Shown in pieces: positions 2,648-57,760 of a DNA stretch of 64,000 nt. The notes under the pieces were generated by a model. That model saw nothing but the letters and a program-made list of their open reading frames with translations. It was not told the origin of the DNA and searched no databases. Position 1 is the first letter of the stretch; each line of letters opens with the position of its first letter. Both the position numbers and the translations under genes were made by a program. The DNA lies in assembly GCF_932294415.1 (NCBI RefSeq), contig NC_065537.1, positions 1,674,001 to 1,738,000 of the forward strand, given 5' to 3'. The DNA is from Quercus robur (lineage: Eukaryota > Streptophyta > Magnoliopsida > Fagales > Fagaceae).

Positions 2648-2970
2648 TCACCTTACTCGGGAGGAATTTTGGTAGGCTAGATTTCCATCCAATCTAGGAT
2701 GAAGTGGAGAATGATGGTGCAAAGGCTGCTGGCCTTGTTGATGAACCACAGGATGACTAGCATGATTTCTAAGCTCCATTGGTCTTTCATTGGCAGCTTC
2801 AAACCGTTTCAATTTTTCTAAAACTTCTTTCATTGATGGTCGAAGCTTAGGTTCAGTTGCAAGGCACTTTAGAGCTATAAAGCACAGACGCGACTGGAAA
2901 GGTGCTGCACCGGAGTTCGACGCAGGGTGCGGCGTCCGACGCGGCTACTCGCACGTCGATGCCGCGTTTG

Positions 2971-3004
<34 letters not shown>

Positions 3005-6000
3005 CTCAAATTCGCACCGACTCGGCTCAATTCACGCTGACTCGGCTTCGATTCGCGCCAATTCGGCTAGAATTAGGCCATATCGACCGAATCGGATTGT
3101 ATCAGCTGGAGACCGAAATGACCAAAACAGCTGAAACAAGCCGAAATCGGCCTTGATTCATGCCGCTGAGGATTCGCCGAAGTCAAGGTATGAAGTGAAG
3201 GTCTTGAAGGTGTAGTTTTCCATGGGCATGTTTAGTGAAGGATGAGGATGGAACTTTAAAGGAGGCGTTGAAAACATTTCTTTCCTTGTAGAGTGGAAGA
3301 GTTTTCTTTTTTGTTTTGGAAAGAGGAGAGGAGAGGAGAGTGATGTTAGATGTGGAGTGGGTGTGAGTTTTGTTATGAGTTATGGGAAGGACTTTTTGAG
3401 GAGAGTGGATCCTACTCAACATTCATTGATGAGGTGCGTGTAAGAACTGTAGAAGCACTATGGCTTTATTTAGTGTAGCGTACGAATGAAACACAAGTGT
3501 GAAGTTGTGCCCTATAAAACAATTGAGATTTTAATATAAATTAATTATTGTTGTATATAATTAGTTACACATAGTCTTGCATATATTTTGTGAAGTTGTA
3601 TTTTAAAAATATAATTTCAATTATAATTGTAAAATCATAAAATTGTATTTTCAAAACATAATTTTATAATTTATACTTAGTAATATATACAAAATATAAA
3701 TAAAAATATTTTTAATAATTTTTTAATCGCCGCACCCGCACCCTACTTTTTCAAAAATTGCTGAGCCCTGCACCCGCACTCGCACCTGCACCCGAATCCC
3801 GAAATGCACCCGTGCTTCATAGTTTAGAGCAAGCTGAGATATATGGAATGCAGCCTTGGATGGATATTTTCCTCCCAACCGGGAGTCCATGATTTGTTTC
3901 AACTTTATTATATCTGATAGATATGGTTTGATCCAATCCACCAAATTTTGTTTCCCACTTGGACGATTGTATCAAATACCCGTAAACCTGTTAGTATCTC
4001 AACTAAAACAACACCAAAAGCATATATGTCACTCTTGACGCCCAAATGCCTTGTATAATCAGCATAACATATTGTCATGGCACAGCTTTTAAAACATTCA
4101 GGGTGAAGTAGCTGAAGTTTGCCAAAATTTAGGTCAAGCTTAAGCCTCACCCTCATTTGGCCTTAAGAGCACCAAAATTCCAAAAGTTTTGGTAGAAATA
4201 ATACCTGTAACAACATACTCTGGAGCTGCATAACCATACATGCCCATTATTCGTGTTGTCACATGTGATTGACTAGCTGATAGACCCAACTTCGCCAAGC
4301 CAAAGTTTGATATCTTGGCATTATAGGACTGCAATAAAACCAAAAGTTAGACTAGTTCAAACTTTATTTGTGAGACATTCTTTTTGTGACCAAGGAATTT
4401 TTAAACTTTTTAATTCCATGATGTGGTGGATCAATTGTGAGAGGTGGGTTCACAAAGGGAAAAATGGGTGTGCATAAAGGTTGGAAATGTGAACAAGATG
4501 AAAAGATGATATAATAATCAATGGGCTAGGGACAGTAGCAATATATCATTCCTTTGTGCATCTCTTGTAGTTTGATAGTTATTCACTTTTCAATGGAAAT
4601 TTACCCCATCCAGCAGTATATCGGAGGATTTAAAACCTCTATGAATAACTTGCTTATCAGATGTGTGCAAAAATGCCAGGCCCCGAGCTGCTCCAATTGC
4701 AATCTTAAGCCGTATATACCATGGAAATGGCCCAATAGCTGACCCCCCTGCATAAATAAATGATGTGTATGGGAAACCAAATGAACTTTTATTTTTGAAT
4801 CACATTCACAGCACATTCCCTACACATATGGACAGTAATAGAATTCAATTATGTTTTAAGCTTTTACTTCCAAACTGATGGTTTTCTAAGCTGCCGTTCT
4901 GCATGAATTCATAAATGAGGAGGAACTCTGTGTCCTCCCAGCAATAGCCTATCAGCTTGATTAGGTTAGGATGAGAGAGCCTTCCAAAGAAAATCACCTC
5001 TGACTGCGCCTATAAATTAGCACTGAGATAAGCATACATATTTAACATGGTTTGAATGTAATGTTAAAAAGCAAATTACTGAAACGTCTAACCAAACTCC
5101 AAATAATGCATCTGTGTGTGTGTTGTTGTTTGGGGGGGGGGGGGGGGAGCCCTGATGTGGTTTAGAGAAAAAAGAACTGTGCCTTAATTTAATACAGAAC
5201 AAGCATTCACAAAATATGGGATTGTTTGCAATGTCAGCTCTAAATCTCAAATCTTTGAAATCAACGTGCTAATTTGAACTTAATTAGCAATGTACATTAA
5301 AAAGTGCAACAAGCAATGATGATAGTAGTTACCATCCTATTTCCCATCAGTGAAGAAGGGTACATTAAAAAGAAACAAGCAATGATGAATATAGCAACAA
5401 CAAGCACAATAAAAGTACAACCGAAAGGACTTAAGGAATTCAAAACACATTAACTTCACAACTATTTATTATTCCCTAGCAAGTTGGGTAGAATTACCCG
5501 CCACTTTTGAAATCCATGCACGCTCTCGGGGCTCAATTTTTTGACAGCAGTTACCATCCTATTTCCATTCTTGGATTGCCCCTTATCCTTGAGCCAACCC
5601 TTAAAAACCTGCCCAAATCCTCCCTCACCAAGTACTGTATCAGGACTAAAATTCTTGGTTGCAACCTTTAATTCTGTAAGACTGAAGTTCCTCAAGTTTG
5701 GGGTGGGCAAGATCTAACCAACTATTATTTCATAATTTTTGGAGCTACTACTGTCTGTTTCAGACCTGGCTGGTGGGAATAGTGACACTATGGGATAAGA
5801 GAATTGTGCTATTGCACAAGGTGATTGGTTAGATTCTGAACAACTACCATCTATCTCAGTTTCAGAAATGGTGGGTGGAAATATTAATGGAATGGAAAAA
5901 TATGGTATGGTAATGGAAGGATTTGTAATTATTATCTCATAATTTTCGGGACTGTCTATTGCAGACCTGGCTGGTGAGTATAATGACACTATGGAATTGG

Positions 6001-6332
6001 AATTATGAGAGAATCTTGGAGATGTTTCGTTGGATTCTGAACAACTATCATTTTCACTATCTGAGTCTGGATTTGTTCCATTCCTTATCCAACTAAAACT
6101 GCAGGACTCTGAGTTGGTTGATGGGAAAACAGAGTACTCTACTAGTGATTCACTTCTTTCTTCCTTTACTGTACTACCACGGTGCGAGTTGTTGGCAACA
6201 AATTCTTCAACCAAAATTTACGAAATACAGAAATGTTTAAAGTTGAAATTATATAGTATTCGATCACTAAATTTTTCTTGTCTGTCTCAAAATTCTTTGA
6301 AACTTACCTGAATCAACTTGGTGCTTCCTCAT
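2648..6332 (-). pseudogene. Chimeric kinase copy 1: N-module + PBL-like (RLCK-VII) kinase, dead
   Basis: Exon 1 (6332-6308) encodes MRKHQVDS. Exon 2 (from 6204) encodes the Ser/acidic N-module with F-P-P-A-R-S repeats, then [19 protein letters not shown], a Gly loop GEGGFGQV and AVKKL. Further exons lie at about 5010-4869, 4747-4605, 4328-4205 and from 4049, ending at 2648 after RPSMKEVLEKLKRF. This is the layout of PBL/BIK1-like cytoplasmic kinases. Lesions: in-frame TAG at 5714-5716 between module and kinase; catalytic loop HRD changed to HRG; DFG changed to NFG; a one-base deletion near 3970 after GLRVFDT; and a 947-bp hAT element in the last exon. It cannot make an active kinase. Splice sites are read by eye. 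Confidence 0.85.
2876..3822. mobile_element. Non-autonomous hAT element in kinase exon
   Basis: Flanked by a perfect 8-bp duplication TTTAGAGC (2868-2875 and 3823-3830), the hAT hallmark. Its ends read TATAAAGCAC and, on the other strand, CTATGAAGCAC. Subterminal regions are GC-rich with repeats of CACCCGCAC type. A poly-T run lies at about 2971-3004. I see no transposase. Removing it with one copy of the duplication rejoins kinase sequence (ISQLAL to KCLATEPKLRPS). Confidence 0.85.
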
Positions 6333-6660
6333 ACTGATATTGGACAGAAAAATTTTGGGAGATTGAGAGCGAAAGAATTACATATGAAAAATGGTGTGTC
6401 AGTGTTCATAGTTTATAACAACTTTGAAGTTTCAGCAAAGATACTTTCTCATGGATTCTCGCATTCGTTTCCACGTGACTGACTAGACCAAGTGCCAAAG
6501 TTCACTTTCCAGAAGCGCTGAGCAGTTGTTTAGTAGTGAAGAAAGTGCGTTTGGTAGCTCTATTTGTCAAAAATGTGACTTTGAGTTTTCGACTCATCTG
6601 CTTCCCGAGAGCATTCATATCTTGCTATGGCTTAATTGCTATACAATAGGGCCTTACATC
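6333..6660 (-). promoter_or_regulatory. Upstream region of kinase copy 1 with G-box
   Basis: This upstream block matches those of the other cluster members at 47805-48030, 57014-57110 and 57473-57760. A perfect G-box CACGTG lies at 6472-6477, about 140 bases before the ATG, in the shared context TTTCCACGTGACTGAC. Homology is direct; a role as promoter is inferred. Confidence 0.5.
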
Positions 6661-6849
6661 ATTTGGGTTGTTCCAAGTTCTTTGTGGGTCTTGGCAAATC
6701 TATCTCAACAATTGGTCTGGTGGTCCTAATGCTCATTTGGATTGACTTCGGCACTCAGCTTTCATGAGGCTTATCCTTGACTTTTCCCCATGTACTGAAT
6801 CAGCATAGTTCATAGGCTCTGCTAGCTAGGTCCATGGGATTTAATTTTA

Positions 6850-8077: not shown

Positions 8078-8079
8078 TG

Positions 8080-15469: not shown

Positions 15470-16443
15470 GTATGCCTGAGGTATTGAACGACCACATCCC
15501 ATTTGAGGACGTGATATTAGTTGATTGTGCTGCTTGTGCTTGTTGCTTAGAACTCTTAAAGGAATTCTGGATTTGAATCATCTGCAGGGATTTGAATCAT
15601 TAGCTACTGCTGCTACATCTGCTGTCGCAACTGTTCACGGAGGTTTCTTTGAAGACTATACCCGCTTGCAGAAGATGCAGAGGAGGTGGTGTTAGTTGTC
15701 TGGGCTGCTTGTGCTTGTTGCGTATTGCAGGACACCTGGGCTTGTGGCATCATTTGTATTAATAATGGCTGCAAGTGACTACCTTGTACTACCATCTGTC
15801 TTAAGGTAATAGTGCGGAATGTTTCATTAGATTCTGAACTAGTACTATCATCTGTCTCTGTCTCAGACTTGTAGGCAGGAAAGATTAGTGAGTTGGAAAG
15901 ATTTGTTTTTCCATTAAGTGTTTGATTAGATTCTGAACTAGTATCAGACATGGTGGGTGGGAAGTGTAATGGAATGGAAAGAGCTGCTTGTCCATTAGGT
16001 GGTGGAAATACTTGTGGAAATGAGGAGGTTATGGAAGGATTTGGAATTGTTATTTCATAATTTTCGGAACTGTCTAGAGAACTAGTAGGTGGGAATAATG
16101 ACACTATTGAATTGGAATGATGATTGAATCTTGGAGGTGTTTCCTTAGAATCTGAATTGGCATTAATGCCAGACTTGTCAGTAGGGAAGAGTGGTAAAAC
16201 GGGAAGCTCTTTAGTGAAGTCTGGAATTGTATTTGTTCCATTCCATATCCGACCACGAGACTGGCTTAGCTGATGGGAAGAATGAGTGCTCGACTAGTGA
16301 TGTACTAAGTTGTTGTAAGCAACAACTTCTACAACCAACGTAACAATAAAATTGCAATAATATAGTATTCAGTCACTAAAATTTTAATTTCTTTAACTCA
16401 AAATTCTTTGAAACTTAATTGGATCAACTTGGTGCTTCTCCAT
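15470..16443 (-). pseudogene. Kinase-cluster copy 2: N-module with Gln-rich tail, no kinase
   Basis: Exon 1 (16443 leftward) reads MEKHQVDP, but the donor GT is now AT (GATCCAATTAAG). The exon 2 region starts near 16335, has an early in-frame stop (HH then TAG), then reads the N-module: SIVSLFPP, ENYEITIPNPSI, FPPTMSDTSSESNQ, SETETDDS. Instead of a kinase, the frame runs into a Gln/Ser/Thr-rich tail (QQAQAAQTTNTTSSASSASG) and stops at 15613. A second QQAQAAQSTNITSS-like copy continues to about 15480 in another frame. It is probably dead. The tail may come from an unrelated Q-rich gene. Confidence 0.7.
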
Positions 16444-33966: not shown

Positions 33967-35714
33967 TCAATCTTCTTTTCCTGAACTGAAAGTCTTACTT
34001 TGCAATGCATCCAAGGCTCTTTGTAGGCTACGTACAATCTCATTCATTGAGGGCGATTTCGACCTTCTAGACTTACACAATGCAGTGCTAGGTTCCCAAC
34101 ATATGCCACTTCTGCTAATTCAAATGGGGTCGGTGGTGGTATTTTTGGGTCCAAAATCTTGTGAATTTCATCTTGGGCAATGTATGGCACTACAAAATCA
34201 ACTATACTTTGTCGCTCACCGTTTTCGTCTCTATAAAGTGCTTTGTATCCAGACAAAATTTCTAGCAATACTACTCCAAAACTGTACACATCACTTTTGG
34301 GTGTTAACAATTGAAGCTTATAGTACTCGGGGTCCACACTGCCTGCCCCAAGAATTGAAAGGTATGACATAAAAGATGGGCCAAAATCAGATACCTTGGC
34401 AGTCCACGTGGCATCTAGTAATATGTTAGAAGATTTGATGTCATAGTGTACGATTGGCGGTACTGCATATGCATGCAGATACTCAATGCCTTTAGCTGCG
34501 TCTAGTGCCACTTTAATCCGGGCAGCCCATGATATTAGAGGAGTACTTTGAAGCTTATGAAGATGGTCATGAAGGGTACCATTTTCCATGTATTCGTAGA
34601 CCACTACACGCACGTTACCATCCTCACAAAATCCCAATAAGCGAACGAGATTCTTGTGGTTAAGGTGGGACAAATCTTCGTATTCATTCTTTATAGACAT
34701 TGATAGTTGAGCACGCTTAATAGCCACTACTTGGCCATCGTCTAAAGTGGCACGGTAGACTGAGCTAAAACTACCTGTTCCAATCTTGTGATCTTCTGAG
34801 AAGTTGTGAGTGGCTTCAAGTAGCATTTGCAAATGAAATTCCGTCAAGTCTCTGAAGCTTGTAGTTATGATTGTGCGTCTAGGCTCAGATCTGTTTGTTT
34901 GTGACTTGGCTGTGGAAAAGAACGACAATACAGATTTTTTTTTGGAATGAGAGAATTTTTGAGATGTTTGGTTAGATTTTGAACTACTACTACTCTTTGG
35001 CTTAAGAAACTCAATCAAGTCTTTAAAGGTTGCTATTTGGACTCTGCGGTTAGGCCTTGCTGATATGGAAGGATCAGTTGGAATTGTTATTTCATAATTT
35101 TTGGAGCTACTACTGTCTGTTTGAGACCCGGCTGGTGGGAATAGTGACACTACGGAATTAGAAAATTGTGCACGAGGTGATTGGTCAGACTCTGAACAAC
35201 TACCGTCGGTCTCAGTCTCAGACATGATGGGTGGGAAGATTGTTGGAATGGAAAAACTTGTTGCTGATATGGAAGGATTTGTAATTATTATCTCATAATT
35301 TTCGGTACTGCTTGTTGGAGACCTGGCTGGTGGGAAGAATGACACTATGGAATTGGAATTATGAGGGAATTTTGGATATGTTTCGTTGGATCCTGGAATA
35401 CTATCACTTTCACTATCTGAGTGGTTGGCTGGGAAAATTGATGGAATGTAAATAGGGGAGCTTGGATTTGTTCCATTCCATATACAACTGAAACTGCCTG
35501 ATGACTCTGACACGGTTGATGGGAAAAATGAGTACTCTACTAGTGATTCACTTCTTTCTTCCATTACTGTACTATCACGGTCTGAGTTATTGGCAACAAA
35601 TTCTGCAACCAAAAATTACGAAATACAGAAATGTTTAAAATTGAAGTTATATAGTATTCAGTCACTAATTGTCTGACTCAAAAACTTACCTGAATCAACT
35701 TGGTGCTTCCTTAT
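33967..35714 (-). pseudogene. Kinase-cluster copy 3: N-module + CRINKLY4/CCR4-like kinase
   Basis: Exon 1 (35714-35690) has ATA where the paralogues have ATG. Its donor and the acceptor at 35603 are intact. Exon 2 (from 35602) encodes the full N-module ([62 protein letters not shown]), then a kinase of the CRINKLY4-related type: [81 protein letters not shown] is HYD, though the catalytic Asp stays. A missing base near 34047 (NRPQ then TGA) shifts the last roughly 26 codons, which still read MNEIVRSLQRALDALQSK to a stop at 33967. The next in-frame ATG would give MEERSES. It is probably a recent pseudogene or a kinase with a cut tail. Confidence 0.8.
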
Positions 35715-36284: not shown

Positions 36285-36288
<4 letters not shown>

Positions 36289-36964: not shown

Positions 36965-36965
36965 A

Positions 36966-36983
36966 TTGGCGCCGTCTGTGGGA
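36966..36983 (+). other. Primer-binding site
   Basis: TTGGCGCCGTCTGTGGGA follows one base after the LTR. TGGCGCCGT matches the 3' end expected for tRNA-Asp over nine bases. The same site, with one change (TTGGCACCGTCTGTGGG), follows the LTR of the element at 57938. Confidence 0.65.
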
Positions 36984-37017
36984 AGAGCTAGGGCATCAGC
37001 TAGTGCAACAGTCGAGC

Positions 37018-39057: not shown

Positions 39058-39063
39058 CAACCA
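39055..39063 (+). promoter_or_regulatory. Amber codon in leaky context between gag-pro and pol
   Basis: TAG is followed by CAACCA, which fits the CAR-YYA context known from tobamovirus-type stop readthrough. pol continues in the same frame with no further stop, and its only early start is a non-ATG codon. Readthrough is therefore the likely way pol is made; that is inference. Confidence 0.6.
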
Positions 39064-42000: not shown

Positions 42001-42372
42001 AACAACTTCCCCACGTTAAGGTCTAATTCGTTTACCCCAGGTGATAACGATGAGTTGTTAGGAAGCAGTCTGGACCTAGCCGAAGAAAGAAGGGAAAAGG
42101 CCACGATTCACATGGCCTATTATCACCAGAAGCTAAGACAAGGATATGATGCTAACGTCAAACTGCGGCCTCTGGGTCCAGGTGATCTCGTGATGAGGAA
42201 GATTCTTGGCAGCGCAAAGAACCCCTCTTGGGGCAAGTTGGGGCCCAATTGGGAGGGACCTTACCGTATCACATCCGTGGCCGGAATAGGCGCCTACTAC
42301 CTGGAGGATTTGGATGAAAAAGCTGTACCTCGACCATGGAATGTAAATAACCTCAGGAGGTATTATTATTAA
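39058..42372 (+). CDS. pol: Gypsy (Tat) pol: RT, two RNase H domains, integrase
   Basis: Open from just after the amber codon to TAA at 42370-42372. Counting residues from 39073: reverse transcriptase with DFTDLNKACPKDPFPLP and YIDD at 234-237; a gypsy RNase H remnant (about 365-490); a second, archaeal-type RNase H from about 525 (WKVYVDGAANQRGSG, NNEAEYEALLQG, SDSRLVVGQV, HADSLATLA); then integrase with its HHCC finger (about 745-795), catalytic Asp in LDIVGPF and SDNG, and Glu in QGNGQVEAVNK. The C-terminus has GPYRI but no chromodomain. Copying RNA to DNA and inserting it are its roles. The dual RNase H defines the Tat lineage. Confidence 0.92.
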   Translation, partial: QPASSVKHNEGLAEEMRCEGLDKIAVSDDPEKFFQVGSELPSQEKEELVRFLRENVDVFAWDAYDAPGVEPSLICHHLNVNPSSTPRKQPPRRPSKEHASAVRDEVAKLKRAGAIKEVFYPEWLANTVVVRKKTGKWRVCVDFTDLNKACPKDPFPLPKIDRLVDATVGHPRMSFLDAFQGYHQIPLALEDQEKTAFMTPIGNYHYKVMPFGLKNAGSTYQRMMTRMFEPQLGKIIEVYIDDMVVKSKRVSEHVKDFGTIFAILREHRLRLNASKCSFGVGSGKFLGYMVTHRGIEVSPDQIKAINSLQTPRNPKEVQKLTGMIAALSRFISRSADRCRPFYLLLNKWKEFKWSEDCVQAFQQLKDYLSRPPIMSSPEADEVLFAYIAVAPHAVSLVLIRDDNGVQRPVYYVSRSLHEAEVRYLPLEKAILAIVHATRKLPHYFQAHTVIVLTQLPLRAVLRSADYTGRIAMWSALLGAFDIKYMPRPSIKGQVLADLVAEFAEPSIETVTEKKDLCGKLVGAISAGEAMHWKVYVDGAANQRGSGVGIVLISPDGAVIEKSLRLGFSATNNEAEYEALLQGMAMVQRLGGRIIEAFSDSRLVVGQVMGELEARDTRMQEYLGQVKRLQESFESFSLTHISRSVNTHADSLATLATSSARNLPRVILVEDLVKASPISGNLTQVHQIRQSPSWMDPLRNFLQNEVLPEERLEAEKIRRKAPRFWLSEDHQLYRRSYSGPYLLCVHPEESESLLEELHEGVCGSHTGGRSLAHRALTQGYWWLNMQRQAQEYAKKCDQCQRFAPNIHQPGGVLNPLSSPWPFAQWGLDIVGPFPKAAGNKRYIIVGTDYFTKWVEAEPLANIRDVDAQKFIWKNIITRFGTPRTLISDNGLQFDSKNFREYCREFGIINRYSTPAYPQGNGQVEAVNKVIVNGLKKRLDESKGRWVEELPHVLWTYRTTPRRSTGETPFSMTYGAEAVLPIENNFPTLRSNSFTPGDNDELLGSSLDLAEERREKATIHMAYYHQKLRQGYDANVKLRPLGPGDLVMRKILGSAKNPSWGKLGPNWEGPYRITSVAGIGAYYLEDLDEKAVPRPWNVNNLRRYYY

Positions 42373-42445
42373 TAAGAATGGTTTAGCATATGTTCTCTTT
42401 CATGACTATTTGCCGCTTCCCAGTCTACGTTACAATTATTTATAA

Positions 42446-42770
42446 GTTTTAAACAGAACCCAAGTCCTGCATGGCTCCTCGGACCACAGACTTGGGGAAA
42501 ATTGTTACTTAAGCCACCTATTTATAGGTTTTAAACAAAACCAAAGTCCTGCATGGCTCCTCGGACCACAGACTTTTGGGGAAGTTATTACTCATGACAG
42601 CTCATAGTTTTAAACAGAACCTAAGTCCTGTATGGCTCCTCGGACCACAGGCTCTAGGGGAAATTATTACTCATGACAAGTCACAGTTTTAAGCTGAACC
42701 TAAGTCCTGCCTGGCTCCTCGGACCATAGACTTTTGGGGAGATTATTACTTATGATAGATGGGGAGATCA
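42446..42770 (+). repeat. Four ~75-85-bp tandem repeats after pol
   Basis: Units start near 42447, 42532, 42606 and 42687. Each has a TTTTAAACAGAACC-like start and TGGCTCCTCGGACCA. A related repeat array lies in the non-autonomous element at 58860-59150. Tandem repeats in this position are known in Tat elements such as Retand. Confidence 0.85.
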
Positions 42771-43008
42771 TTATTTAGAGTAAATCACTTTTAATACATG
42801 CGCACAGTCTAGCATCATCTCGACCCTCAAATGAGCAACCCAAAAACCCATTTTCATTTTTACCGTTTGCCTGTATCTACCTCGTTATAAAGGTTTAAAC
42901 GCTATCGACGTACATTTTTAATAAACAAAACGAACATTTCATATTGACATTCCGAGTACATTAAAAAGAGAGTTCCTTACAAAAGAATGAAAAAACAAGA
43001 CAACTCTC

Positions 43009-43050
<42 letters not shown>
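43009..43050. repeat. Poly-A run
   Basis: About 38 A residues just beyond the 3' end of the antisense gene, inside the gypsy element. Confidence 0.9.
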
Positions 43051-43053
<3 letters not shown>

Positions 43054-43080
43054 ATTCACTAAGGTTGAAAACCTATAAGG

Positions 43081-45538
43081 CTAAGCTTCAGCGGGAGGAT
43101 CTTCTTTCTGCTCGGGCTGAGGAGGAGGAGCCTCAACGGTAGAGTCAGTGGCAGGATCCTTAGCCACATCAGGCACAAGTACGGCATCAGGCACCGCCAG
43201 GTCTTGCTCCGAAGTGACTTGGGCTTCATCAGGGTTAACTCGGATCTCCGGAGGATAGAAGATGCTCTCGGGCAATCTTAATGCCGAATCCGCAGGAACT
43301 CCTGCAGCGTCGAGAGCATGAGCCCATGAAATGTCGCAGTACTCCCTGCACACCTCAGGGATCTCCTCAGATAACCTGGCCTCAGTCTCTTCGGCCCCAA
43401 GCTGGCGAGCAGCATTCTTCTCGGCCTCCGTGGCCTCTCGGATCAGCTGGACTTCCTCCCTTGCCAGCCTCAGTTCATCCTCCACCTTTTGCAGGGCAGT
43501 CCTCAGATCCTGCACTGCCTGCCTCTCGGTGTTAAGGTTAAGCTGAGCCGTGTACAGTTGTTTGCGTTGGTCCTCCGCCTGATCCTCGGCAGTCTTTAGG
43601 CCGGCCTCTGCACTTTTACGTCGGTTCTCCGAATCCTTGAACTCAGCCGTGAGTTTAGTGTGATCATGCCTAAGGGACCCCAAGGCTTTCTCCACCTCTG
43701 TCCGAGCCTGGGTCTCAGCCTCAGCCAGATTACGGCTACTACGGCAAAACTCCTCGGCCACAAAGACCTGCTGAGTAATCTGCGGACAAAACAAGAGCGT
43801 ACTTAAAAGAAAAGTATATAATCTAACGGGAGCAAGTAAATGATCAAAGCAGTAAAAAGATTACTTACCAGCGCGAGATCCCTCTTAAGGGATAGGAAGA
43901 GCTCGGACTGAGTGCACCGCCTGTAAGCCTCCATGTCCCTAGGAAGAAGTAGGGGCTGCTCTAAGGCCTCCGCCACGTACCCCGCCCGGCCACGATTATA
44001 CTCTCGGACCGAAGCAGTGTAAGGAATGGCGAGCCCATCCAGCTCCAACTTTGGGTCCCATGGACGAAGGGCAGTGCGCACTTCAGCAAGGTTCCCCTCA
44101 TCCCTACTGTCCGAGGAGGTGCCCCTTCTGCTCCTTGGCGCCCGTGTAGTTTTCTGCTGCTTGGTCGGCTGGACAGCCACCTCGCCTTCCTCTGGCGTGT
44201 CCACCGGCCTCTTCTTCTTCAGGTCCGGGATAACCTTAAGACCAAAGTCCGAGACGCCTTAGGGAACCACAGGGGGAAGGGTTTTGACCTTTGATGGACT
44301 TGGGCCCTTCGATGGCTGAACCTGTGATGACTGACCTTTCCCCCGAGATGTCATCAGCTCCTTTAGAGACTTTCCCTTTCCTGCCATGGGCTCTACCTCT
44401 TCGTCTGAGGTATCGTCCGAGCAGATAACAATTGGGGGAACACCAACTGTAGAATGTCGGTCCTGCTCGGCTTCGGGATTGGAAGGCTCCCCTAAAGGAT
44501 TTTGCTGAATTTCCTCCTCGAAGTAAAACTCGTCTATTTCTGCCTCAAGAGAAAGACGGGAAGATTCAGTTTCTTCTTCAATCAGAGCAGCCGCGCCAGG
44601 CTCATTTACCGGAGGAAGCTGCTCCGCTAAGTAAGGATTCCTGACCCCAGGCAGCACTACTGGTGGCAAATCGTGTGGAGCTAGGAACCCGTCTCGGGAC
44701 ACGTCAATCCTAGCCAACCTCGGACTGCCCGCCCTTATAACGTGACCAATTGCTTGGAAAGCCCTGCTCAGAGGTTGATAGCCCAAAACCAAATGGGCCG
44801 CACGCAACTGTCTGTCCTCGGTAACGTAAATCTCCGACCTGAGAAGATAATTCAGCGCTGGCACATTCGTAAGGTCTATCCGAGGAGCGACGTGAATTTT
44901 TTCTGCGAACAACCAAGAAAAGTGAGGTCAGGTCATGAAATTTTCCAATTACAAAGAAAGCAAAAAATATATATAATAATAATCCCTCAACACTAAATCC
45001 TTTCCCCAAAAAGGACCAATCCTAAGAGCGCCGCACCTGGTTTTCCTGCCCGAGTTGGACAGTGAATACCGTCAAACCACTCCCCAGAAGCAATGAGGAA
45101 GTCATCCTTCACGGTCTTATTGGAAACTGGAAGACAAGAGATCAACCTAACGACCTCGTTCCGGGATTTAAGATAATACCCATCATCCCCAAGGCGATGG
45201 CATTCGTACAAATAGGCCACATCATGCCAAGTGAGGTCTAGATTCATCCGCTCGCTTAAGACATCTACACAGCCTAATATCTTGAACATATTTGGGGCAC
45301 ACTGATACGGCGTCAACCTATGGTTGAACAGGTATTCCCTTGTGATCCTGTGCATGAGAAGTGTCATCCCTCCCTCTATGAAAGCAATCATGGGGATAAC
45401 GACTTCTCCTTCAACTCTATCGGTCAATATTCCTTCAAGAGGACAGTGCCGCAGCCCAACCCTCGGGGGAATGTGGTATTTAGCCCTAAAGGCTTCCATA
45501 GCGGCAGGAGTTTTTACTAATTTTTCGAATCTACCCAT
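43081..45538 (-). pseudogene. Antisense spliced gene of the gypsy element (one internal stop)
   Basis: On the minus strand three exons join in frame: 45538-45037 (starts MGRFEKLVKTPAAMEAF), 44902-43869 and 43779-43081, with donors CCAG|GTGCGG and CTG|GTAAGT and acceptors TTCGCAG and CCGCAG. The sum is 2235 nt, 744 codons plus stop, broken only by one TAA at 44259-44261. The N-terminal part (YHIPPRVGLRHCPLEG, FIEGGMTLLMHRITREYL) resembles the putative gypsy-type transposon domain (Pfam Transposase_28) found in plant antisense ORFs. The middle is acidic and Pro-rich. The last exon is a long Ala/Glu/Arg coiled coil. Extra antisense ORFs are known in Tat elements; function is unknown. The stop may be a recent mutation or a real end. 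Confidence 0.75.
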
Positions 45539-45806
45539 CTGAACTGAACTGAGGAAATGAAAGTAGAGACTGGAAAGAAAAGTAGAGTCCGAGGAAGAAA
45601 TTGAAACGGAGAGAAAGGCGAAATGTACTGGTACCTTCACAAGACGCTCAAGGGGACGCCTAGGAATCTCTCTTGGACGAGGCGCTTCACAAGAACGGCT
45701 ACGGCGGCGTAACGGACGCAAGTGTTCGTATATCTCTGGAGTTCTCTGGAGCCTTCTGGGGTTTGTGAAATGCAGATGAAAAAAGAAACTGAGCCCCGCT
45801 GACGTC

Positions 45807-45813
45807 TTATATA
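45807..45813 (-). promoter_or_regulatory. TATA box of antisense gene
   Basis: The minus strand reads GCTATATAAGACGTC, about 270 bases before the ATG at 45538. It fits a plant TATA box in position and sequence and suggests the antisense gene has its own promoter. Confidence 0.5.
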
Positions 45814-46062
45814 GCAGGGAGGAGAGAGAAAAGATCATCCCTGCCTAAAAATACGAGAAAGAAACGATGGCCGTTCGATTCACACCAAGCCGTTGGATGA
45901 AGGGAACATAACGCCTCCAGAAGTTAATGACCACGTCTCGTAAATTGTGGCGCGTCAAAAGTAACGGTCCGTACGCGCACCCCACGATCTCCTTATTTCC
46001 CTCCACTCACAAATATCAAAACCCCGCTTTTCTCCTCGGAGGGAGGTTAAAACCGCAGTTTT

Positions 46063-46070
46063 GAGGGGCT
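46063..46070 (+). other. Polypurine tract
   Basis: GAGGGGCT lies just before the 3' LTR; the other Tat-like element has TTGAGAGGCTAT in the same place. Confidence 0.6.
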
Positions 46071-46072
46071 AT

Positions 46073-46752
46073 TGTGGGGCCCGGCCCAAAAATGATGGGC
46101 TATTCCAAGCTCAGGCCCGTCCGAGGAGCGTCCTGTCCAACGAAAAGCCTCATATGAAGCGCTGTTCAACCCCGATAGCGTCAAGGAAACCTGTCCGAGG
46201 AGTAACTCCTCCTCGGACATCACGAAGCCCAGACGAGAAACTCTGCTCAGCCATTTCAGCTCACCTTCCCCAACATAAAAAACAAATTAAATTCAAAATA
46301 TCTCACGGAAGGCTACCACCACATTAATTGCGCCCCAACCACCCTCTTGGCCGCATTAATGAGGAAAAGACCCCTGAACAGTACCGCCTTGGCCTCTGCA
46401 ACTCACAAAAGGTCTGATGAGGGCGTCTGATGGGACAGGTGCTCAAGTGGGTGCTTGGATGACTAACAGGTGTAAGGCTGGGATGAAAAGGAGAGAAATA
46501 TATAATGTAATGAAGTCCCTCAAAGGAGGGACGGGAGAATTGTAAGAGGAACAAAAGAAATAAAACCAGACTAGAAGAATCCTTCTTTACGTTCTTATTT
46601 CTCTCTGCAAACAGTACACTACATGCATCAGATTTGTTAGTTTCACTGAGGCCAAGCTCTTTAACCCATTCTCTACAAGTATTTATTGTGGGTTGTGCTT
46701 TGGGTCAAGGCCTGATCAACAGAAGTTGGGCCAGGAAAATCGTGCAACCACA
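46073..46752 (+). repeat. Gypsy 3' LTR (680 bp)
   Basis: Identical to the 5' LTR except for two transitions near its end (GGGTCAAGG for GGGCCAAGG and TTGGGCCAGG for TTGGACCAGG). Confidence 0.95.
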
Positions 46753-47327
46753 ATATATATCACCAAAAATTGAGAGAGAAAGAGAGAGAAATAATTTTTT
46801 TGTGAAGAAAAATTATGCATATAATGGAAAAGAGAATGCCAAATTTATACAAAAAGGATAACAATAAGAAGAAACAAAATAAAGGGATAGATGAAGAGTG
46901 ATATTAAGAGAGAGGGTAGTGGGGAGATGAAAATGTAAAGGGAAATAGAAAGGTTAGAGAAAGTGTAAATGTTAAAAAAAGTGAGTACAATTTAATTTAT
47001 TTAAATTTAAATAAAATATTATATGTTTAATTAAAAAAAGAAAATATAAATAATTTAATTATATGGAGGATGTGACTGAGTTTAAATATTGAATAACATA
47101 AGATGAAAAGATTAAAAAAGTAAAAGTATAATATATATAACAATAAACACCAAATTACCCAAATCATATTATGTAATAGAATAATATATATTACATTCTT
47201 ATATATTATCTTTTTAAAAAATTTTTTATAACACAATAGTATAATATTTAACAATCAAAGAGAACAAAAAAACTTAAAACACAAAACTAAATAAAATAAT
47301 AAATAAATAAAAAACTCCAAAAATTAT

Positions 47328-47804: not shown

Positions 47805-48030
47805 TTTGGAAGTTTCAGCGAAGATACTTTCTCATGGACTCTCGTGTTCCTTTCGGCGTGACTGACTAGAACAAGGGCCAAGTTCACTTTCCAGAAGAAA
47901 TAAAAATAAGAAGAGGAAGTTTCCCTACATTTGGTAGCTCTATTTGTGAGTCGAAAATTGTGGCTTTTGCGTCTTTGGCTAATTTACTAGCCGAGAGTAT
48001 TCACATCTTGTTCTGTTTATACCAGAGATT
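47805..48030 (-). promoter_or_regulatory. Displaced upstream region of kinase copy 3
   Basis: TTTGGAAGTTTCAGCGAAGATACTT and what follows match the upstream block of copy 1 (6410-6620), including TTTGGTAGCTCTATTTGT. It belongs in front of the gene at 33967-35714 but now lies 12 kb away behind Helitron B. The G-box is degraded to GGCGTG. Confidence 0.7.
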
Positions 48031-52854: not shown

Positions 52855-55788
52855 TCAATGTTCTCTTAATGAAGTGCTCATGGAATAGGATGAGAGTGAA
52901 CTGACATGTGAAGTTAATGCCTCTCTGTACTCTTTACGGATACGCCAAAGGATTTCTGCACACCTCCTCATGCTAGGCCGATTCTGTCTACGTGGAGCCA
53001 AACATTGTAAGGCTAGTTCAAGAATCTTATCAACGGCTAATATATTTGCAGAATCACATGCCAGCTTTGGGTCCAAGGTTGAAATAGCTTCTCCATCAGT
53101 AAACTTCTTCATGGCCTGAACTCAAAATCAAGTCACATTAGGGTAAAGAATTTTCTTAGTTTTGGAAAATGTTCCAATGTAACATATCCAGTTAAAAGAA
53201 GGGAAGAGTTGGAAAATTGTTGAAAAGACTAGGTAAGATACTTTGATGGACGTGTGAAGATAATCATATGGATTTTTGTTAAACAGTCATGGAAGTTTCT
53301 TTTACTCTGTTTTTGCCGGAACCTGTTAATCAAATTTCAAAATTGATAGTGACCAAAAGAAAAGTCTCAATAGAATCATACCCATTTTGCCGTTATCCGC
53401 TCCTTCAGTTCTCGTTTTGGTTCGATTGGACGCCTGCCCGTGACTAGTTCAACCAATAACACACCAAATGAATACACATCACTTTTCTCAGTAAGCTGAT
53501 AGGTCCTGAGGTACTCTGGGTCCAAGTAGCCAGCAGTTCCTTTTACTTGGGTAGACACATGGGTAACACCTGAATCACTGTCAGCTGATAGTCTAGCGAA
53601 ACCAAAGTCGGTTTCCTTGGCTCTAAAGTTTTCCTTGAGGAGAATGTTGGAAGATTTTATGTCTCTATGAATGATAGTGTGATCTGCAAGAGAGCCGACA
53701 GAAAATCCTGTTGGATCTCTCGAAATAGATTCTACTTTCTCAGAGGCGAACAACTTTTTAATTTTGACAGGACAAATGAATTAAGTCACCCCAAAGGTGT
53801 ATACCTGTATACATATGAAGATAGGTGATGGCATGGGCCACATCAATTCCAATATCTAGCCGTACAGCAAGGCTCAGAATATTGCCTCGAATACCTGCCG
53901 TAGTTCTCCAATCAGATTTCAGGAACTCAAGCACACACAGAGTGAATGAAAGTAAAGCCACACAAAGAGAACTCACAATCCAAATGTTCTCTGAGGGTTC
54001 CATTGGGAACATACTCCGCAACAACAATCCTTTCATCTCCGTGCTCCAAATATCCATAAAACTTGACAAGATTCAAATGTTCCACCTTCGCTAGAGTTTG
54101 AATCTCACTCTGGAATTCTACTTCTAAATGCTTATCATATACAAGCTGCAAAGAAAGATAAACAAGTACTTGTCAAAGCTCTATGTCACACATTTGTTGA
54201 CTTAAATGTGAAGCCCCATAAGTTTGTGTCAGACCCAGAAAACGGAATTATCATAAACAACTTTCACCGAACCTTCTTAGCCCGTTTTACCGCAACCAAG
54301 GTTCCATCTTTGAGTCTCCCCTTGAAGACTGTTCCAAACCCACCTTGTCCAATCTTAAAAGGGGGAGAGAAATTCCCCGTGGCCTTGAGGATTTCCTCTA
54401 TATTGAACTTTACACTCTCAGCCTCCCGTCCATGTGTTGAGTTATTTGCACTGTCATTGACTCCTCGATTTGAACCACGTTTTCTCTCTCTACCTGTTTT
54501 TGAAGCATCCGATGCATCTCAGAAATCAACAAACAGGGTCTAGACTGCATGAATCCTCCAAATTATCCAACATCTATATATACTGAATAGAATTAAACCA
54601 TCGATATAAAATTTCTATCACAATTGTCAGAGCTCTAATTCTTTTAATAATATAAAACCTTCCCAACAATAATGATAATAAAATCTTCAAACTTAATGGG
54701 TGTTCCAACAAAATATTGTATTACCACAGGTTCCAAATCTCTTGTGAACTTTTGTTACTTCAATAATTTATCAAAATAAAAGATCCTCAACAAAGACCAT
54801 TACAATTTCTCCAACACATAATCAAAGCTCAACAGTAAAGTTCCAATATTAACCTAAATTACAAAGTCATTACCTGAGAATTCTCTAACCCACGATTGCC
54901 TCAAGAATTGCCTCAATAATCTGAAAGGATCTGAAGGGGGAGAGAGAAAAAAAGGGGAGGGGGGGGGGGGGGTGGGTGAGATACTCAGTAAGTAGGACTT
55001 GCTATGCAAAATGGTTAACAAGGTGCGCTCCCTTGCTAATGAGCTTCTTATTTGAAACTACAACGGTAAACTCCCTTGCAAAGGAGCTACTAAGGTACAT
55101 TGTTCCCTCTTTAGCTTGTTTGTGTTGTTTATTAGAGGGGGGAAGTTTAAATTCGGGAACCAGAATTTACCTCTGAAGCTTGTTGTTTGGATTGTGCGTC
55201 TTGTAGGCCTTGCTGATGCTGGTATGGAAGGATCAGTTGGATTTATATCATCATTTTCGGAAACACTGTCTGTTTGAGACTTGGCTGGTGGGAAGAATGA
55301 CACTATGGAATAAGAGAATCGTGCTTCTACTGCTTCATCAAATCCTGAACAACTATCATTTGTTTCCGTCTCAGACATGGTGGGTGGGAAGAGCAATGAA
55401 ATGGATAGACTTGTTGGTTCATTAGCCCGTATGGAAGGATTTTCGGAAACACTAGACCTTGCTGGTGAGAAGAATGACGCTATGGAATTGGGACAGTAAG
55501 AGAATACTGGATGTATTTCGTTGGATTCAGAACTACCATCAGTGTCAAACTTGTTAGCTGGAAAGAGTGCTGGAATGGAAACTGACTCTACTAATGATTC
55601 ACTTCTTTCTTCACTATATGTTGGACTACCAGAGTCTGAGTTGTTGTCTTCAAAAAAACCTGCAACCAAAAATTACAAATAAAGATGGTAAAAATTGCAA
55701 TGAATTATATAGTATTCCGTCACTAAAATTTCTTGTCTAACTCAAAATTCATTGAATCTTAACCTAGATCAACTTGGTGCTTCTGCAT
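52855..55788 (-). CDS. Intact chimeric kinase: N-module + CRCK-like kinase (copy 4)
   Basis: Seven exons by GT-AG and frame: 55788-55764, 55659-55171, 54517-54273, 54145-53977, 53894-53805, 53683-53382, 53115-52855; 526 aa, no break. Residues 1-171 are the cluster's N-module ([62 protein letters not shown]). From 172 it is a CRCK-type cytoplasmic Ser/Thr kinase: [12 protein letters not shown] with Lys 249, [20 protein letters not shown] 345-347, DFG 365-367, [41 protein letters not shown]. All catalytic residues are present. No signal peptide or membrane segment, so likely cytoplasmic. CRCKs can bind calmodulin; whether this one does is not visible. The module joins the kinase at a phase-1 intron. 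Confidence 0.88.
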
Positions 55789-55880
55789 ACCGACCTTGGA
55801 CAAATAATTCTGGGAGATTGACGTAACTGAGAGAGAGAGAGAATTGCATTTCAAAATGGTGTGTTGGTAGTAATAATTTA

Positions 55881-57013
55881 GAGCATCCACAGCAGCTGTG
55901 GTATAATTTATGCCATTTTGCCACACTAAAGACCTACTTTATTATTTTACCACATCATTTTACAACATCCCATTTATCAGATGTTTTATCATTCAATCCT
56001 ATACATTAAAATAATATTTACTACACATTAAAATAATATAAACAATACAATAAAATAATATATCTAACACAGTAATTAACAACCACAACACTGCCGCCGC
56101 CGCCACCACCGCCACCGCCACCACCACCATCGTGGCAGCCACAATCCATTGCAAAACAAAAAATTGAAAACAAAACCACCGCCCACCACAAAACCCATTA
56201 AAACCCAGAAAACACAGAAAATCCATGAATCAAACCCAGAAAACAGCAACTCAAACCCAGAAAACACAACCAACTCAAACCCAGAAAACACAACCAAAAC
56301 CCACTAGACCGGTAACCCAAACCCACGAAACTACTAGCACCGCCAACCCAAAGCCCCGAATCCACTTGCACCGGCAACCAAAACCCATTAGCACCGGCAA
56401 CCCACGATTCCGATCTCACCTCAACGTCGATGGCCACGTCGATTCCAATCCCATAATCGTGACGAACACTCCGGCGGCAGACCTCGCCCTCACGAACCTC
56501 GCTTATTGCTCGCACACCGATCTTCATGGCTTCGCCGTCCCTGGCACCAAGCTCTACCTCGCCTCCATCGCCGATTCCTTTGTTCTTTCTGGGTTTGTGA
56601 GGATTCCATTTCTGGGTTTTGTTTTAAACTAGGAATTGGATTTGAGGATTTTTGGGTTTGATTTTTGGATTTGAAGAAAGAATATTTCTGGGTTTGATTT
56701 GAGGAAAGAACACCGGTTTGGGAGAGAGAGACCGATTGTGAGGAGAGGTGTTCGTGAGGAGAGGAAACAACACCGGTTGGGGAGAGAAAAAATCAATTAA
56801 AAAAGTGAGAGGAGAGAGAAAAACCGAATAAACAAATAATAAATTTATACCACATTTCGTCCGCACCGTTGCAAATTTGCAACGGTACTGTTCATATGTG
56901 GTATAAATTTTACCATTTGGAACATCTGATAAAGCTCCGTTTTTGTGTTTGGTGTGCTAAATGTGCCAAAAATTTGGCATTTGGCACATTTAGCACATCT
57001 GCTGCGGGTGCTC
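55881..57013. mobile_element. PIF/Harbinger-like element (1133 bp) with gene fragment
   Basis: Ends GAGCATCCACAGCAG and, on the other strand, GAGCACCCGCAGCAG, flanked by TTA on both sides (55878-55880, 57014-57016), as for Harbinger-type elements. Removing it restores the promoter sequence ATAATTTATAAGAATTTGG shared by paralogues. The interior has CCG-rich and AAACCCAGAAAACA repeats and an NSF-like coding fragment, but no transposase. Confidence 0.78.
56456..56590 (+). pseudogene. Captured NSF N-terminal fragment
   Basis: Reads IVTNTPAADLALTNLAYCS, then HGFAVPGTKLYLASIADSF, close to the start of plant NSF (the N-ethylmaleimide-sensitive fusion ATPase of vesicle transport). About 45 codons, then it diverges. 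It sits within a Harbinger-like element, so it is a transduplicated exon piece. The ORF runs on but the surrounding residues are repeat-derived. Confidence 0.65.
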
Positions 57014-57110
57014 TTATAAGAATTTGGAAGTTTTAAAAAGAATTCAGCGAAAATACTGACATTTGACATTTCCACGTGAGGGTGCTTTCCAAGATGAAAT
57101 AAAAGAAAGA
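57014..57110 (-). promoter_or_regulatory. Displaced promoter part of intact kinase, with G-box
   Basis: Continues the upstream sequence of the gene at 52855-55788 beyond the Harbinger-like element. TTTCCACGTGAGGGTG holds a perfect CACGTG at 57073-57078, the same position in the alignment as in copy 1. The insertion has moved it about 1.1 kb further from the gene. Confidence 0.5.
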
Positions 57111-57447
57111 AGTGGATGTTTCCCCTCTATTACAGTTTTTTTTTTTTTTTACTTAATATAAGTTTCTACCTATTTTTACCTCAAAAAAAAAATAAATAAA
57201 TTTGAACAAGTGCCATCAAAAGTTGGTGGAGTCGATGGTGACATAGATATTATGACGAGGTGGTGGTGAAAATTTGATGATTCCATTAGAAGAAGGAGAA
57301 AGAGGGGCATAATGGAGATGGGATATAACTTGTGATATAATTGACCCTTTTTGTCAAGAAACAAAGTAATAAGCAATCAGCTGAATTTATTGTACAGTTT
57401 CAGATACTAAAATTTTCTTGTCTAACTCAAAGTTCTTTGAAACTTAC
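57111..57447. other. No gene seen
   Basis: T-rich start, then sequence with one short minus-strand frame (57176-57376) of unknown nature. The N-module exon expected left of the exon at 57448 is absent. Confidence 0.5.
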
Positions 57448-57760
57448 TTCGATCAACTTGGGGCTTCCACATGACACCAATCTACGACAAAATATTCTGC
57501 GAAATTGAATTGGGAGGAAGAAAGAATTGCGTATAAAAATGGTATTTTATAATTTATAGTAAGAATTTGGAAATTCTAGGATTGAATTCAGTGAAGATAC
57601 TCACAGTTTCCGCGTGAGAGTACTTTCCAAGAAGAAATAAAATATAAGACAAAAGAGGAAGTTTCCTGCGCTGAACAGTTTCTACTAGGGACAAAAATTG
57701 TGTTTTGTAGCTTTATTTGTGAGTCAAAACGTGACTTTGACTAATTTAATAGCTGAGAGC
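57448..57760 (-). pseudogene. Kinase-cluster copy 5: first exon and promoter only
   Basis: 57472-57448 reads MWKPQVDR with a good donor GAA|GTAAGT, and the upstream block matches the other copies (GAATTTGGAAATTCTAGGATTGAATTCAGTGAAGATAC region; CGCGTG at 57611-57616 where others have CACGTG). No exon 2 follows, so it is a truncated copy. Confidence 0.7.

Follow-up and report, generated by a model that had tools for sequence, protein, structure and literature searches.

A Shared 5′ Gene Cassette Joined to Different Kinases and Other Immunity-Type Genes in Oak and Its Relatives

RESULTS

Organization of the Locus

The window analyzed here is a 64,000-nucleotide stretch of Quercus robur DNA (contig NC_065537.1, positions 1,674,001 to 1,738,000). 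Five copies of a promoter and a 25-nt exon 1 were found in this window, all on the minus strand, with starts at positions 6332, 16443, 35714, 55788, and 57472 (Table 1). Exon 1 is followed by a GT donor in copies 1, 3, 4, and 5; copy 2 has lost it. A tblastn scan of the window (E up to 1e-3) with the modules of 36 relatives located four module loci. An earlier note on this DNA had described a minus-strand cluster of four module copies and a fifth copy with only promoter and exon 1, and the window comparison and the tblastn scan bear this out.

Table 1. Positions of the Five Copies in the Window
Feature	Position	Strand	Remarks
Copy 1, shared promoter/UTR	upstream of exon 1 to about 6423	−	window comparison
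Copy 1, exon 1 (MRKHQVDS..)	6308..6332	−	donor GTAAGT present
Copy 1, module, exon 2	5717..6204	−	76% to P0006 module, E 3e-77
Copy 1, damaged exons of a PBL/PIX13-like kinase	2648..5713	−	read by eye; tblastn pieces
Copy 2, exon 1	16419..16443	−	donor GT lost
Copy 2, module and Gln-rich 3′ reading frame	15613..16293	−	no kinase
Copy 3, exon 1	35690..35714	−	ATA at start codon
Copy 3, module, 5′ part of exon 2	34839..35602	−	91% to P0001 module
Copy 3, CCR4-like kinase	33967..34838	−	one ORF with module as far as 34044
Copy 4, exon 1 (MQKHQVDL..)	55764..55788	−
Copy 4, exon 2, module	55171..55659	−	489 nt, phase 1-1
Copy 4, exon 3 (20-letter peptide)	54874..54930	−	57 nt, phase 1-1
Copy 4, CRCK-like kinase, five exons, open	52855..54493	−	HRD, DFG intact
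Copy 4, kinase exons	54493-54273, 54145-53977, 53894-53805, 53683-53382, 53115-52855	−
Copy 5, promoter and exon 1 only	exon 1, 57448..57472	−	no module there (tblastn)

In copy 1, the module and the PBL kinase lie in one frame, with an in-frame TAG between them (5714-5716). Read by eye, the catalytic loop of this kinase is HRG, the DFG motif has become NFG, and an insertion of about 0.95 kb interrupts the last kinase exon, with kinase pieces detected by tblastn. The module of copy 2 has a profile score of 97.3, compared with 5.8 for the best of 500 shuffles. In copy 3, the module, which extends further at its 3′ end than that of copy 1, and the CCR4-like kinase form a single ORF of 523 residues, and the last ~30 residues of the kinase are out of frame. 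The gene model for copy 4 joins the module to the CRCK-like kinase in eight open exons encoding 537 residues, with two further introns between the module exon and the kinase; a second possible acceptor, 24 nt upstream of 54493, also preserves the frame. The module exon of copy 4 is symmetric in phase. Its module is 92% identical to that of database protein P0041 over 162 residues, and the exon-3 peptide is also present in P0041. The four partners listed in the earlier note (PBL-like, Gln-rich, CCR4-like, and CRCK-like) are present, but copies 1–3 are damaged and copy 2 has no kinase, leaving copy 4 as the sole open reading in the window.

Properties and Relatives of the Module

The four module copies are rich in Ser and acidic residues, and each contains 3–5 repeats of the FPP-x-x-S type. 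These repeats exceed those in composition-preserving shuffles; copy 3 has five, compared with a shuffle mean of 0.14, and this number was reached in 0 of 500 shuffles. Chance likeness through Ser/acidic composition is ruled out by the shuffles. The second motif proposed for the module, of the NYEI type, did not hold throughout the family, since it is missing from copy 4, P0041, P0049, P0053, and P0015 (5 of 12 representatives). Ser-Pro sites were clearly above shuffles in none of the 12 representatives.

Relatives of the module were found in 55 database proteins, and all 36 that carry an organism name come from Quercus, Castanea, or Lithocarpus. With the module region of copy 3 as the query, 50 protein matches were obtained among 1174 candidates, the 34 named ones all belonging to these three genera. 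Two further protein searches added five module proteins, two of them named, both from Q. suber. The window modules have no match in Pfam up to E 1, nor do the modules of eight relatives up to 0.1, and this includes the NOI motif of the RIN4/NOI family. Searches against NCBIfam gave only general kinase matches, far under the cut-offs, and none for P0049 and P0053. In the AlphaFold2 model of copy 3, 10-residue blocks score 27–39 across module residues 1–250 and mostly 74–93 across the kinase; the module is thus predicted by the model to be disordered. The earlier note knew of no described family of this form, and none was found in the open-licence PMC literature among the matches listed.

Twelve database proteins begin with MVA followed by EF or GF. 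The MVA start fits the end of intron 1 (TTG GTT GCA), and we therefore take these proteins to be genomic ORFs; their reading as transcripts was rejected.

Kinase Partners

The assignment of copy 1 to the PBL class follows from its similarity to P0007, whose kinase is matched by the copy 1 pieces. Among solved proteins, P0007 comes closest to PBL2 (E 1.5e-118) and BIK1 (E 4.4e-115). An N-terminal MGxC myristoylation site is usual for RLCK-VII/PBL kinases. No such start is found in copy 1, P0004, P0007, P0008, P0009, or P0011, which begin with MRKHQVDS; P0006, P0012, and P0013 have other N-terminal ends, and none of the PBL-type proteins shown begins with MG. The kinase of copy 3 is putatively of the CCR4 type; it falls in one clade with proteins named CCR4 by some sources, in a tree that was built without Arabidopsis CCR4. 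CCR4 receptor kinases usually have an ectodomain and a transmembrane segment; in the copy 3 ORF no other Pfam domain precedes the kinase, and the module, predicted to be disordered, stands in their place. The nearest solved kinases to that of copy 4 are FERONIA and SymRK; its signature suggests a CRCK-type kinase. P0041 is named G-type lectin kinase B120 by its source, and its nearest solved kinase is BAK1; we presume it to be CRK-like (DUF26-type). The source names are not consistent, since P0014 and P0019, both within the CCR4 clade, are called PBL25 and PERK11, respectively.

In 28 of the 39 database kinases whose catalytic loop could be read, a key aspartate is missing. The loop Asp is found in 22 of 41 readable kinases and the DFG Asp in 19 of 39, in rows that are not independent of one another. 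Among the eight PBL rows with a readable loop, both aspartates occur only in P0009 (YGD/DFG). Judged from these residues, most of the kinase partners look catalytically dead.

Module and Kinase Trees

Copies 1 and 3 are 81% identical over 745 positions (E 0.0), from the promoter to the end of the copy 1 module, and downstream of this module no alignment between them was found in the self-comparison of the window (E up to 1e-6). The histories of the two parts were compared using module and kinase sequences from the same 28 proteins, and wider sets were also run. The CCR4-like kinases fall together in a single clade (100/99), and a tree constrained to unite their modules is rejected (AU p = 3.9e-05; 28 proteins); this group was fixed beforehand by kinase class. 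The modules of the copy 3 group and of the PBL proteins form one clade (100/99) that is rejected on the kinase data (AU p = 0.0019), a less strict value because this grouping was chosen after an earlier tree was seen. P0005 and copy 3 are grouped by their modules (87/74), but the kinase data give AU p = 0.257, and a conflict inside the CCR4 class is therefore not claimed. Copy 4 and P0041 have the module and the exon-3 peptide in common, yet no other row, P0041 included, exceeds 41% identity to the kinase of copy 4.

Module and kinase trees, whose agreement the earlier note had set against its proposal, therefore conflict for these 28 proteins. Plain tandem duplication is ruled out by this conflict, and repeated joining of the module, as that note had proposed, is supported, whichever part was captured by the other. 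We regard the fusion history as well supported.

Partners Other than Kinases

The range of partners is wider than had been claimed. Outside the kinases, the module is joined to one MORN protein, to part of an ACD11/GLTP protein, and to two ORFs of the NLR type, the NLR-type and MORN fusions being known as ORFs only. The modules of P0049, P0050, P0053, and P0055 score 67–114 bits against a profile of 31 kinase-linked modules, each above all 500 shuffles. P0053 aligns with residues 7–122 of the 207 of solved ACD11, so that its GLTP part is partial. The module is internal in both NLR-type ORFs. In P0055, which has one member, Rx_N (profile 1–87 of 93), a partial NB-ARC (2–44 of 248), and an LRR surround the module, which is placed between the coiled coil and the NB-ARC. 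In P0050, Rx_N is matched only on the C-terminal side of the module, and the ORF stops before any NB-ARC. When the module was excised from P0050, the Rx_N match did not lengthen (36.3 vs 38.9 bits), and the best stretch was still profile 56–86, though two stretches were matched. The module apparently lies inside the coiled coil of P0050, a placement that rests on the reading of the sequence.

In kinase, MORN, and GLTP fusions alike the module comes before its partner, and P0040 has a second kinase part before the module. Some annotated fusions may be gene-model merges, and P0040 looks like one. According to a passage of PMC6086335, 9% of oak genes are of the NB-LRR or RLK kind, and kinase and NLR partners are thus partly expected by number.

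In 13 proteins a Copia-gag-type sequence directly precedes exon 2, and eight of these have Pfam gag domains. Such joins could be the trace of a transposable element or retrotransposon that carries the module and drops it before genes. We consider this origin very unlikely, since the gag-type join falls at the exon-2 border in all 13 proteins, as by splicing, and no flanking repeats, short terminal repeats and Helitron ends aside, surround the shared unit in the window self-comparison (E up to 1e-6). In addition, all five copies point the same way within 55 kb, and a longest contig of 71,088,366 bases is common to six C. sativa members, which points to a local cluster.

DISCUSSION

Constraint on the Module

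Between window copies, the dN/dS of the module is 0.65–0.89, with an interval that includes 1 in five of the six pairs, and copies 1 and 3 have diverged to a similar extent in exon, intron, and promoter. No clear constraint at the protein level follows from these values, and clear purifying selection on the module was not found among the window copies. The cluster could accordingly be the product of neutral birth-and-death in a tandem kinase array, in which unequal and illegitimate recombination sets one 5′ end before whatever follows, the products being mostly pseudogenes and the module having no function. The damage to copies 1–3, the dN/dS near 0.8 with wide intervals, and the many truncated or catalytically dead relatives are in keeping with this, as is the weak purifying selection on oak NB-LRR and RLK families reported in a passage of PMC6086335. 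However, the same replacement of DFG by NFN is seen repeatedly, in long open frames, in 12 of 39 database kinases, named Quercus and Castanea proteins among them; the FPP-x-x-S repeats are kept in modules on unrelated partners; and copy 4 is open across eight exons. On balance we think the neutral account possible but improbable. Even without an immune role, the family clearly illustrates how one 5′ cassette can be set repeatedly before unrelated genes.

Proposed Role of the Cassette

We lean, by a modest degree, toward a chimeric family of the Fagaceae, a restriction that holds for the named matches, in which a portable 5′ cassette has been fused repeatedly to immunity-type genes and supplies a bait or docking tail. 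The cassette consists of the promoter, the 25-nt exon 1, an intron, the module in exon 2, and sometimes exon 3. In DNA or in predicted proteins it is fused in frame to the cytoplasmic portion of kinases of the receptor-like or receptor-like cytoplasmic type (CCR4-like, PBL/PIX13, CRK-like, and CRCK-like), and also to ACD11/GLTP, MORN, and two NLR types. The usual N-termini of the kinase partners are a myristoylation site (PBL), an ectodomain and transmembrane segment (CCR4), and the CRCK N-terminus. The fusion products are predicted to be soluble, since a disordered module takes the place of the membrane-targeting N-terminus of the partner. The FPP-x-x-S-acidic repeats would bring the immunity-type partners to one binder or pathogen effector, with the (pseudo)kinase fusions as decoys or scaffolds and the NLR fusions as the sensing form. 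We infer expression, binding, and decoy or sensor function, and bait or docking tail is the most likely role of the module. In favor of this reading, passages of PMC7532969 state that the NLR SUMM2 monitors CRCK3 and that acd11 autoimmunity depends on the NLR LAZ5.

The module may instead set the location, turnover, or expression of its partners (for example, a soluble pool, phospho-regulated degradation, or a shared promoter) and have no role in pathogen sensing. Its position ahead of a kinase, MORN, or GLTP partner and the promoter common to the five window copies would suit such a role, and disordered tails rich in Ser, Thr, and acidic residues commonly carry phosphosites. In the two NLR-type ORFs, however, the module is internal, so that what was captured was neither the promoter nor the N-terminal position, and we hold this alternative to be rather doubtful.

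Comparison with Known Systems

RIN4/NOI is a short disordered piece that occurs in several plant proteins and is also built into NLRs. The bait proposed here resembles it as a short disordered piece in several proteins, also within NLR-type ORFs, but the module has no Pfam match, its partners include kinases, ACD11, and MORN, and among named matches it is found only under Fagaceae names. The RLCK pseudokinases ZED1 and RKS1 serve as baits guarded by ZAR1; RLCKs that look like pseudokinases occur here as well, but the kinase subfamilies are different and a disordered module is added. Relative to PBL, CCR4, and CRCK kinases, the usual N-terminus is replaced by the module in the fusions, the likeness to PBL/PIX13 (RLCK-VII) resting on solved relatives, that to CCR4 (CR4-like) on source names and the clade, and that to CRCK on the signature. 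Much as in NLRs with integrated domains, a noncanonical segment appears to lie inside the NLR-type proteins P0055 and P0050; unlike those domains, this segment is predicted to be disordered, is outside Pfam, and is not known to bind an effector. A passage of PMC12787737 names RIN4 among NLR integrated domains, and the survey scans Pfam-A according to the same source; surveys of this kind should therefore miss the module.

A more specific proposal, which we offer tentatively, is a lineage-specific, disordered, multimotif bait that shuffling of exons and promoters has carried to several classes of immune component (RLCKs, receptor-kinase cytoplasmic domains, ACD11, and a MORN protein) and into two kinds of NLR. 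If the bait is shared, in oak and chestnut one small repeat array would link kinases, pseudokinases, ACD11, and NLRs, marking one binder or effector target that is surveyed in many forms. It would then provide a handle on what the expanded immune repertoires of these trees guard and a probe for module-binding proteins and effectors, and would show that disordered, family-specific modules can escape Pfam-based catalogues of integrated decoys. The cluster preserves fusion products of one family side by side.

Cassette Copies in the Window

The shared promoter and 25-nt exon 1 were found in five minus-strand gene copies. The module, a Ser/acidic segment encoded by exon 2, is present in copies 1-4, and tblastn with the modules of 36 relatives detected no other module locus in the window. 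Copies 1 and 3 align at 81% identity over 745 positions; the alignment ends where the copy 1 module ends, and self-comparison of the window gave no alignment of the two further downstream. Since promoter (89%, 82 positions), intron (86%, 87 positions), and module (87%, 483 positions) are similarly identical, the sequences indicate that the 5' cassette was copied as one whole. The window is of plant origin: in the protein search, the closest named relatives of the window copies were oak and chestnut proteins.

The earlier note had placed the module before a PBL-like kinase, a Gln-rich tail, a CCR4-like kinase, and a CRCK-like kinase. Kinases do follow at copies 1, 3, and 4, but copy 2 has none, and copies 1-3 are damaged. 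In copy 1, an in-frame TAG separates the module from the PBL kinase, in which, as read by eye, HRG replaces HRD, NFG replaces DFG, and the last exon carries a ~0.95-kb insertion. Copy 2 has lost the first splice donor. Copy 3 joins module and CCR4-like kinase in a single 523-aa ORF, with ATA as the exon 1 start and the final ~30 residues out of frame.

Copy 4 is the sole window copy with a reading frame open throughout. Its model of 8 exons, with borders picked by eye and guided by relatives, has GT/AG at 7/7 introns and encodes 537 aa; the kinase is putatively CRCK-like by its signature. Exons 2 and 3 have lengths divisible by three and phase 1-1, so such exons could be moved without a frame break. 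The exon 4 acceptor has a weak pyrimidine tract, with a better-looking in-frame alternative 24 nt upstream (read by eye).

Features of the window (window positions)
Feature	Position or length	Strand	Remarks
Copy 1, exon 1 start (shared promoter upstream)	6332	minus	sequence comparison
Copy 2, exon 1 start (shared promoter upstream)	16443	minus	sequence comparison
Copy 3, exon 1 start (shared promoter upstream)	35714	minus	sequence comparison
Copy 4, exon 1 start (shared promoter upstream)	55788	minus	sequence comparison
Copy 5, exon 1 start (shared promoter upstream)	57472	minus	sequence comparison; promoter and exon 1 alone
Copy 4, exons 1-3	25 nt, 489 nt, 57 nt	minus	8-exon model
Copy 4, exons 4-8		minus	8-exon model; CRCK-like kinase, HRD and DFG intact
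LTR element	36285-46754		inserted upstream of copy 3; 682-bp LTRs, 99.7% identical; taken to be Gypsy type from gene order
Further upstream stretch of copy 1	6423-6624		matches 47806-48010, on far side of LTR element
Insertion, ~1.1 kb	55880-57010		between copy 4 proximal promoter and its upstream stretch; probably a small DNA element
Upstream stretch of copy 4	57017-57123		common to copy 5
Large inverted repeat	30959-31504, 32021-32562		arms ~545 bp, 91% identical; possibly a foldback element
93-nt tandem repeat	33091-33372		after the inverted repeat
683-bp direct repeats	57935-58617, 60701-61383		95%; near right end of window
74-nt tandem repeat	58855-59161		
1.25-kb direct repeats	61380-62611, 62655-63886		87%; near right end of window

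Relatives and Partner Proteins

The module region of copy 3 matched 50 proteins among 1174 candidates. The module of P0049 gave 7 matches among 116 candidates (four new) and the P0050 region 2 among 1563 (one new), for a total of 55 relatives. All 36 with an organism name are from Quercus (lobata, suber, robur), Castanea (sativa, mollissima, dentata), or Lithocarpus. Module-linked kinases are probably clustered in Castanea too, because six C. sativa members share a longest contig of 71,088,366 bases, taken as one chromosome, and one C. dentata member is tagged 11G009500.

Fusion of the 5' cassette to unrelated coding sequence has occurred repeatedly. The names that the sources give to the kinases differ widely (CCR4, PIX13, PBL25, PERK11, TMK3, B120, and others), and classes were not assigned from these names alone. 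CCR4-like kinases make up 24 of the 32 rows of the larger kinase set; PBL/PIX13 kinases are also partners, as is one putatively CRK-like kinase, P0041. P0049 carries a MORN protein in one ORF, with the intron-1 border still read at its 5' end. P0053 carries a partial ACD11-like GLTP, which matches the solved ACD11 at E 4e-19 over its residues 7-122 of 207. The module is internal in two NLR-type ORFs. In P0050, it sits between EEVADIKNE and WVHQVRDVAF, within an apparent coiled coil (read by eye), and Rx_N is matched only C-terminal to it; in P0055, a near-complete Rx_N precedes it, and the P-loop of a strongly shortened NB-ARC follows. A profile built from 31 kinase-linked modules scored P0049, P0050, P0053, and P0055 at 100, 67, 114, and 114 bits, respectively, against 4, 3, 7, and 11 bits for the best of 500 shuffles. 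P0040 from Quercus suber links two CCR4-like kinase parts via the module exon, and looks like either read-through from one cluster member to its neighbor or a gene-model merger.

The exon-2 start was recognized by pattern in 42 of the 55 proteins, where it follows MRKHQVDS or a similar sequence, Copia-gag-type sequence ending MA, or another short end. Gag-type sequence was found in 13 proteins (P0014, P0015, P0018, P0019, P0027, P0029, P0031, P0033, P0034, P0038, P0043, P0046, and P0047), 8 with a Pfam gag domain and 5 with remnants. In Quercus, Castanea, and Lithocarpus alike, it runs in frame into the module at the exon-2 border. Neighboring genes may have been merged in these gene models; a domesticated gag exon is possible.

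Module and Kinase Trees

The trees were compared on the same 28 rows, where module and kinase were found to conflict rather than agree, as expected from the repeated module capture proposed in the earlier note. The CCR4 kinases form one clade (100/99), and forcing their modules together was rejected (AU p = 3.9e-05). Conversely, the copy 3 group and PBL, a grouping chosen after an earlier module tree had been seen, form one module clade (100/99) that was rejected for the kinases (AU p = 0.0019). The larger module set (CCR4 grouping, p = 1.8e-21) and kinase set (converse, p = 4e-84) gave two-tree values to be taken as "rejected" only. Within the CCR4 class, the conflict was not significant (p = 0.257, 28 rows). 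The modules of copy 4 and P0041 are nearly identical and group 100/99 with the relative P0016 (starred; larger module tree). In the larger kinase set, the copy 4 kinase is at most 41% identical to any row and differs from that of P0041; both are on long branches. The trees gave no resolution of the deep order of partners, and placement of copy 2, P0049, P0050, P0053, and P0055 in the larger module tree is unsure. Shuffling of the module onto unrelated partners is very probably the origin of these proteins.

Module Sequence and Catalytic Residues

Modules of 12 representatives are 160-256 aa long with 17-23% Ser and a net charge of -4 to -19 in 11 of them (P0031, +6). The repeat unit approximates S-I-x-S-[LIF]-F-P-P-A-[RK]-S-[EQ]-T-[DE]-S. 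Of 64 FPP-like sites in 13 representatives, 60 have Phe at position 0 and 52 have Pro at +1, while Ser occupies +5 in 50 and -5 in 47. With the loosest FPP-x-x-S pattern, at most 11 of 500 shuffles match the count in each of the 12 representatives. The NYEI-type motif was missing from 5/12 and the SESN-type from 2/12. Ser-Pro sites were not enriched over shuffles in the 12 representatives. The module is predicted to be disordered, because AlphaFold2 (copy 3 with 26 relatives) gave block pLDDT values of 27-39 for residues 1-250; the kinase blocks were mostly 74-93, the lowest (42) near the activation segment.

The catalytic loop was readable in 41 of 57 sequences inspected, which are not independent, since some are almost identical or model a single gene. 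The loop Asp is kept in 22/41, the DFG Asp in 19/39, and both with exact DFG in 9/41 (7 database proteins and copies 3 and 4); at least one aspartate is absent in 28 of the 39 database proteins with a readable loop. Dead kinases would appear to be kept, since NFN replaces DFG in 12/39, including named Quercus and Castanea members.

Proposed Function

The disordered repeat tail stands where the membrane-targeting N-terminus usual for the partners would be. The repeats could each bind the same partner protein or effector, and the fusion proteins, many catalytically dead, could act as baits or scaffolds. An immune bait or docking role is preferred, though tentatively, because the module is internal in two NLR-type ORFs and because two partner classes, the CRCK-like one putatively, are related to NLR-watched Arabidopsis proteins: CRCK3 is watched by the NLR SUMM2, and acd11 autoimmunity requires the NLR LAZ5 (PMC7532969). 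A role in location or turnover is somewhat less probable. That the fusion products are largely non-functional is almost as probable as the immune role, and is favored by the pairwise module dN/dS of 0.65-0.89 between window copies. These values speak against the module as a whole being under strong protein-level constraint, or reflect decay in copies 1-3; the interval lies below 1 for the copy 2/copy 4 pair alone (0.40-0.96). Purifying selection is described as generally weak in oak NB-LRR and RLK families (PMC6086335).

Precedents exist for NLR integrated domains, for disordered baits of the NOI type, and for RLCK pseudokinases as baits. A recent NLR survey, which counts Quercus suber and Q. 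lobata among those species that have many integrated domains, scanned Pfam-A (PMC12787737), a database with no model for this module: no Pfam family matched the window modules (up to E 1) or those of 8 relatives (up to E 0.1). Targeted searches of open-licence PMC listed no description of a disordered, family-specific module that connects several classes of kinase with ACD11, MORN, and NLR-type proteins.
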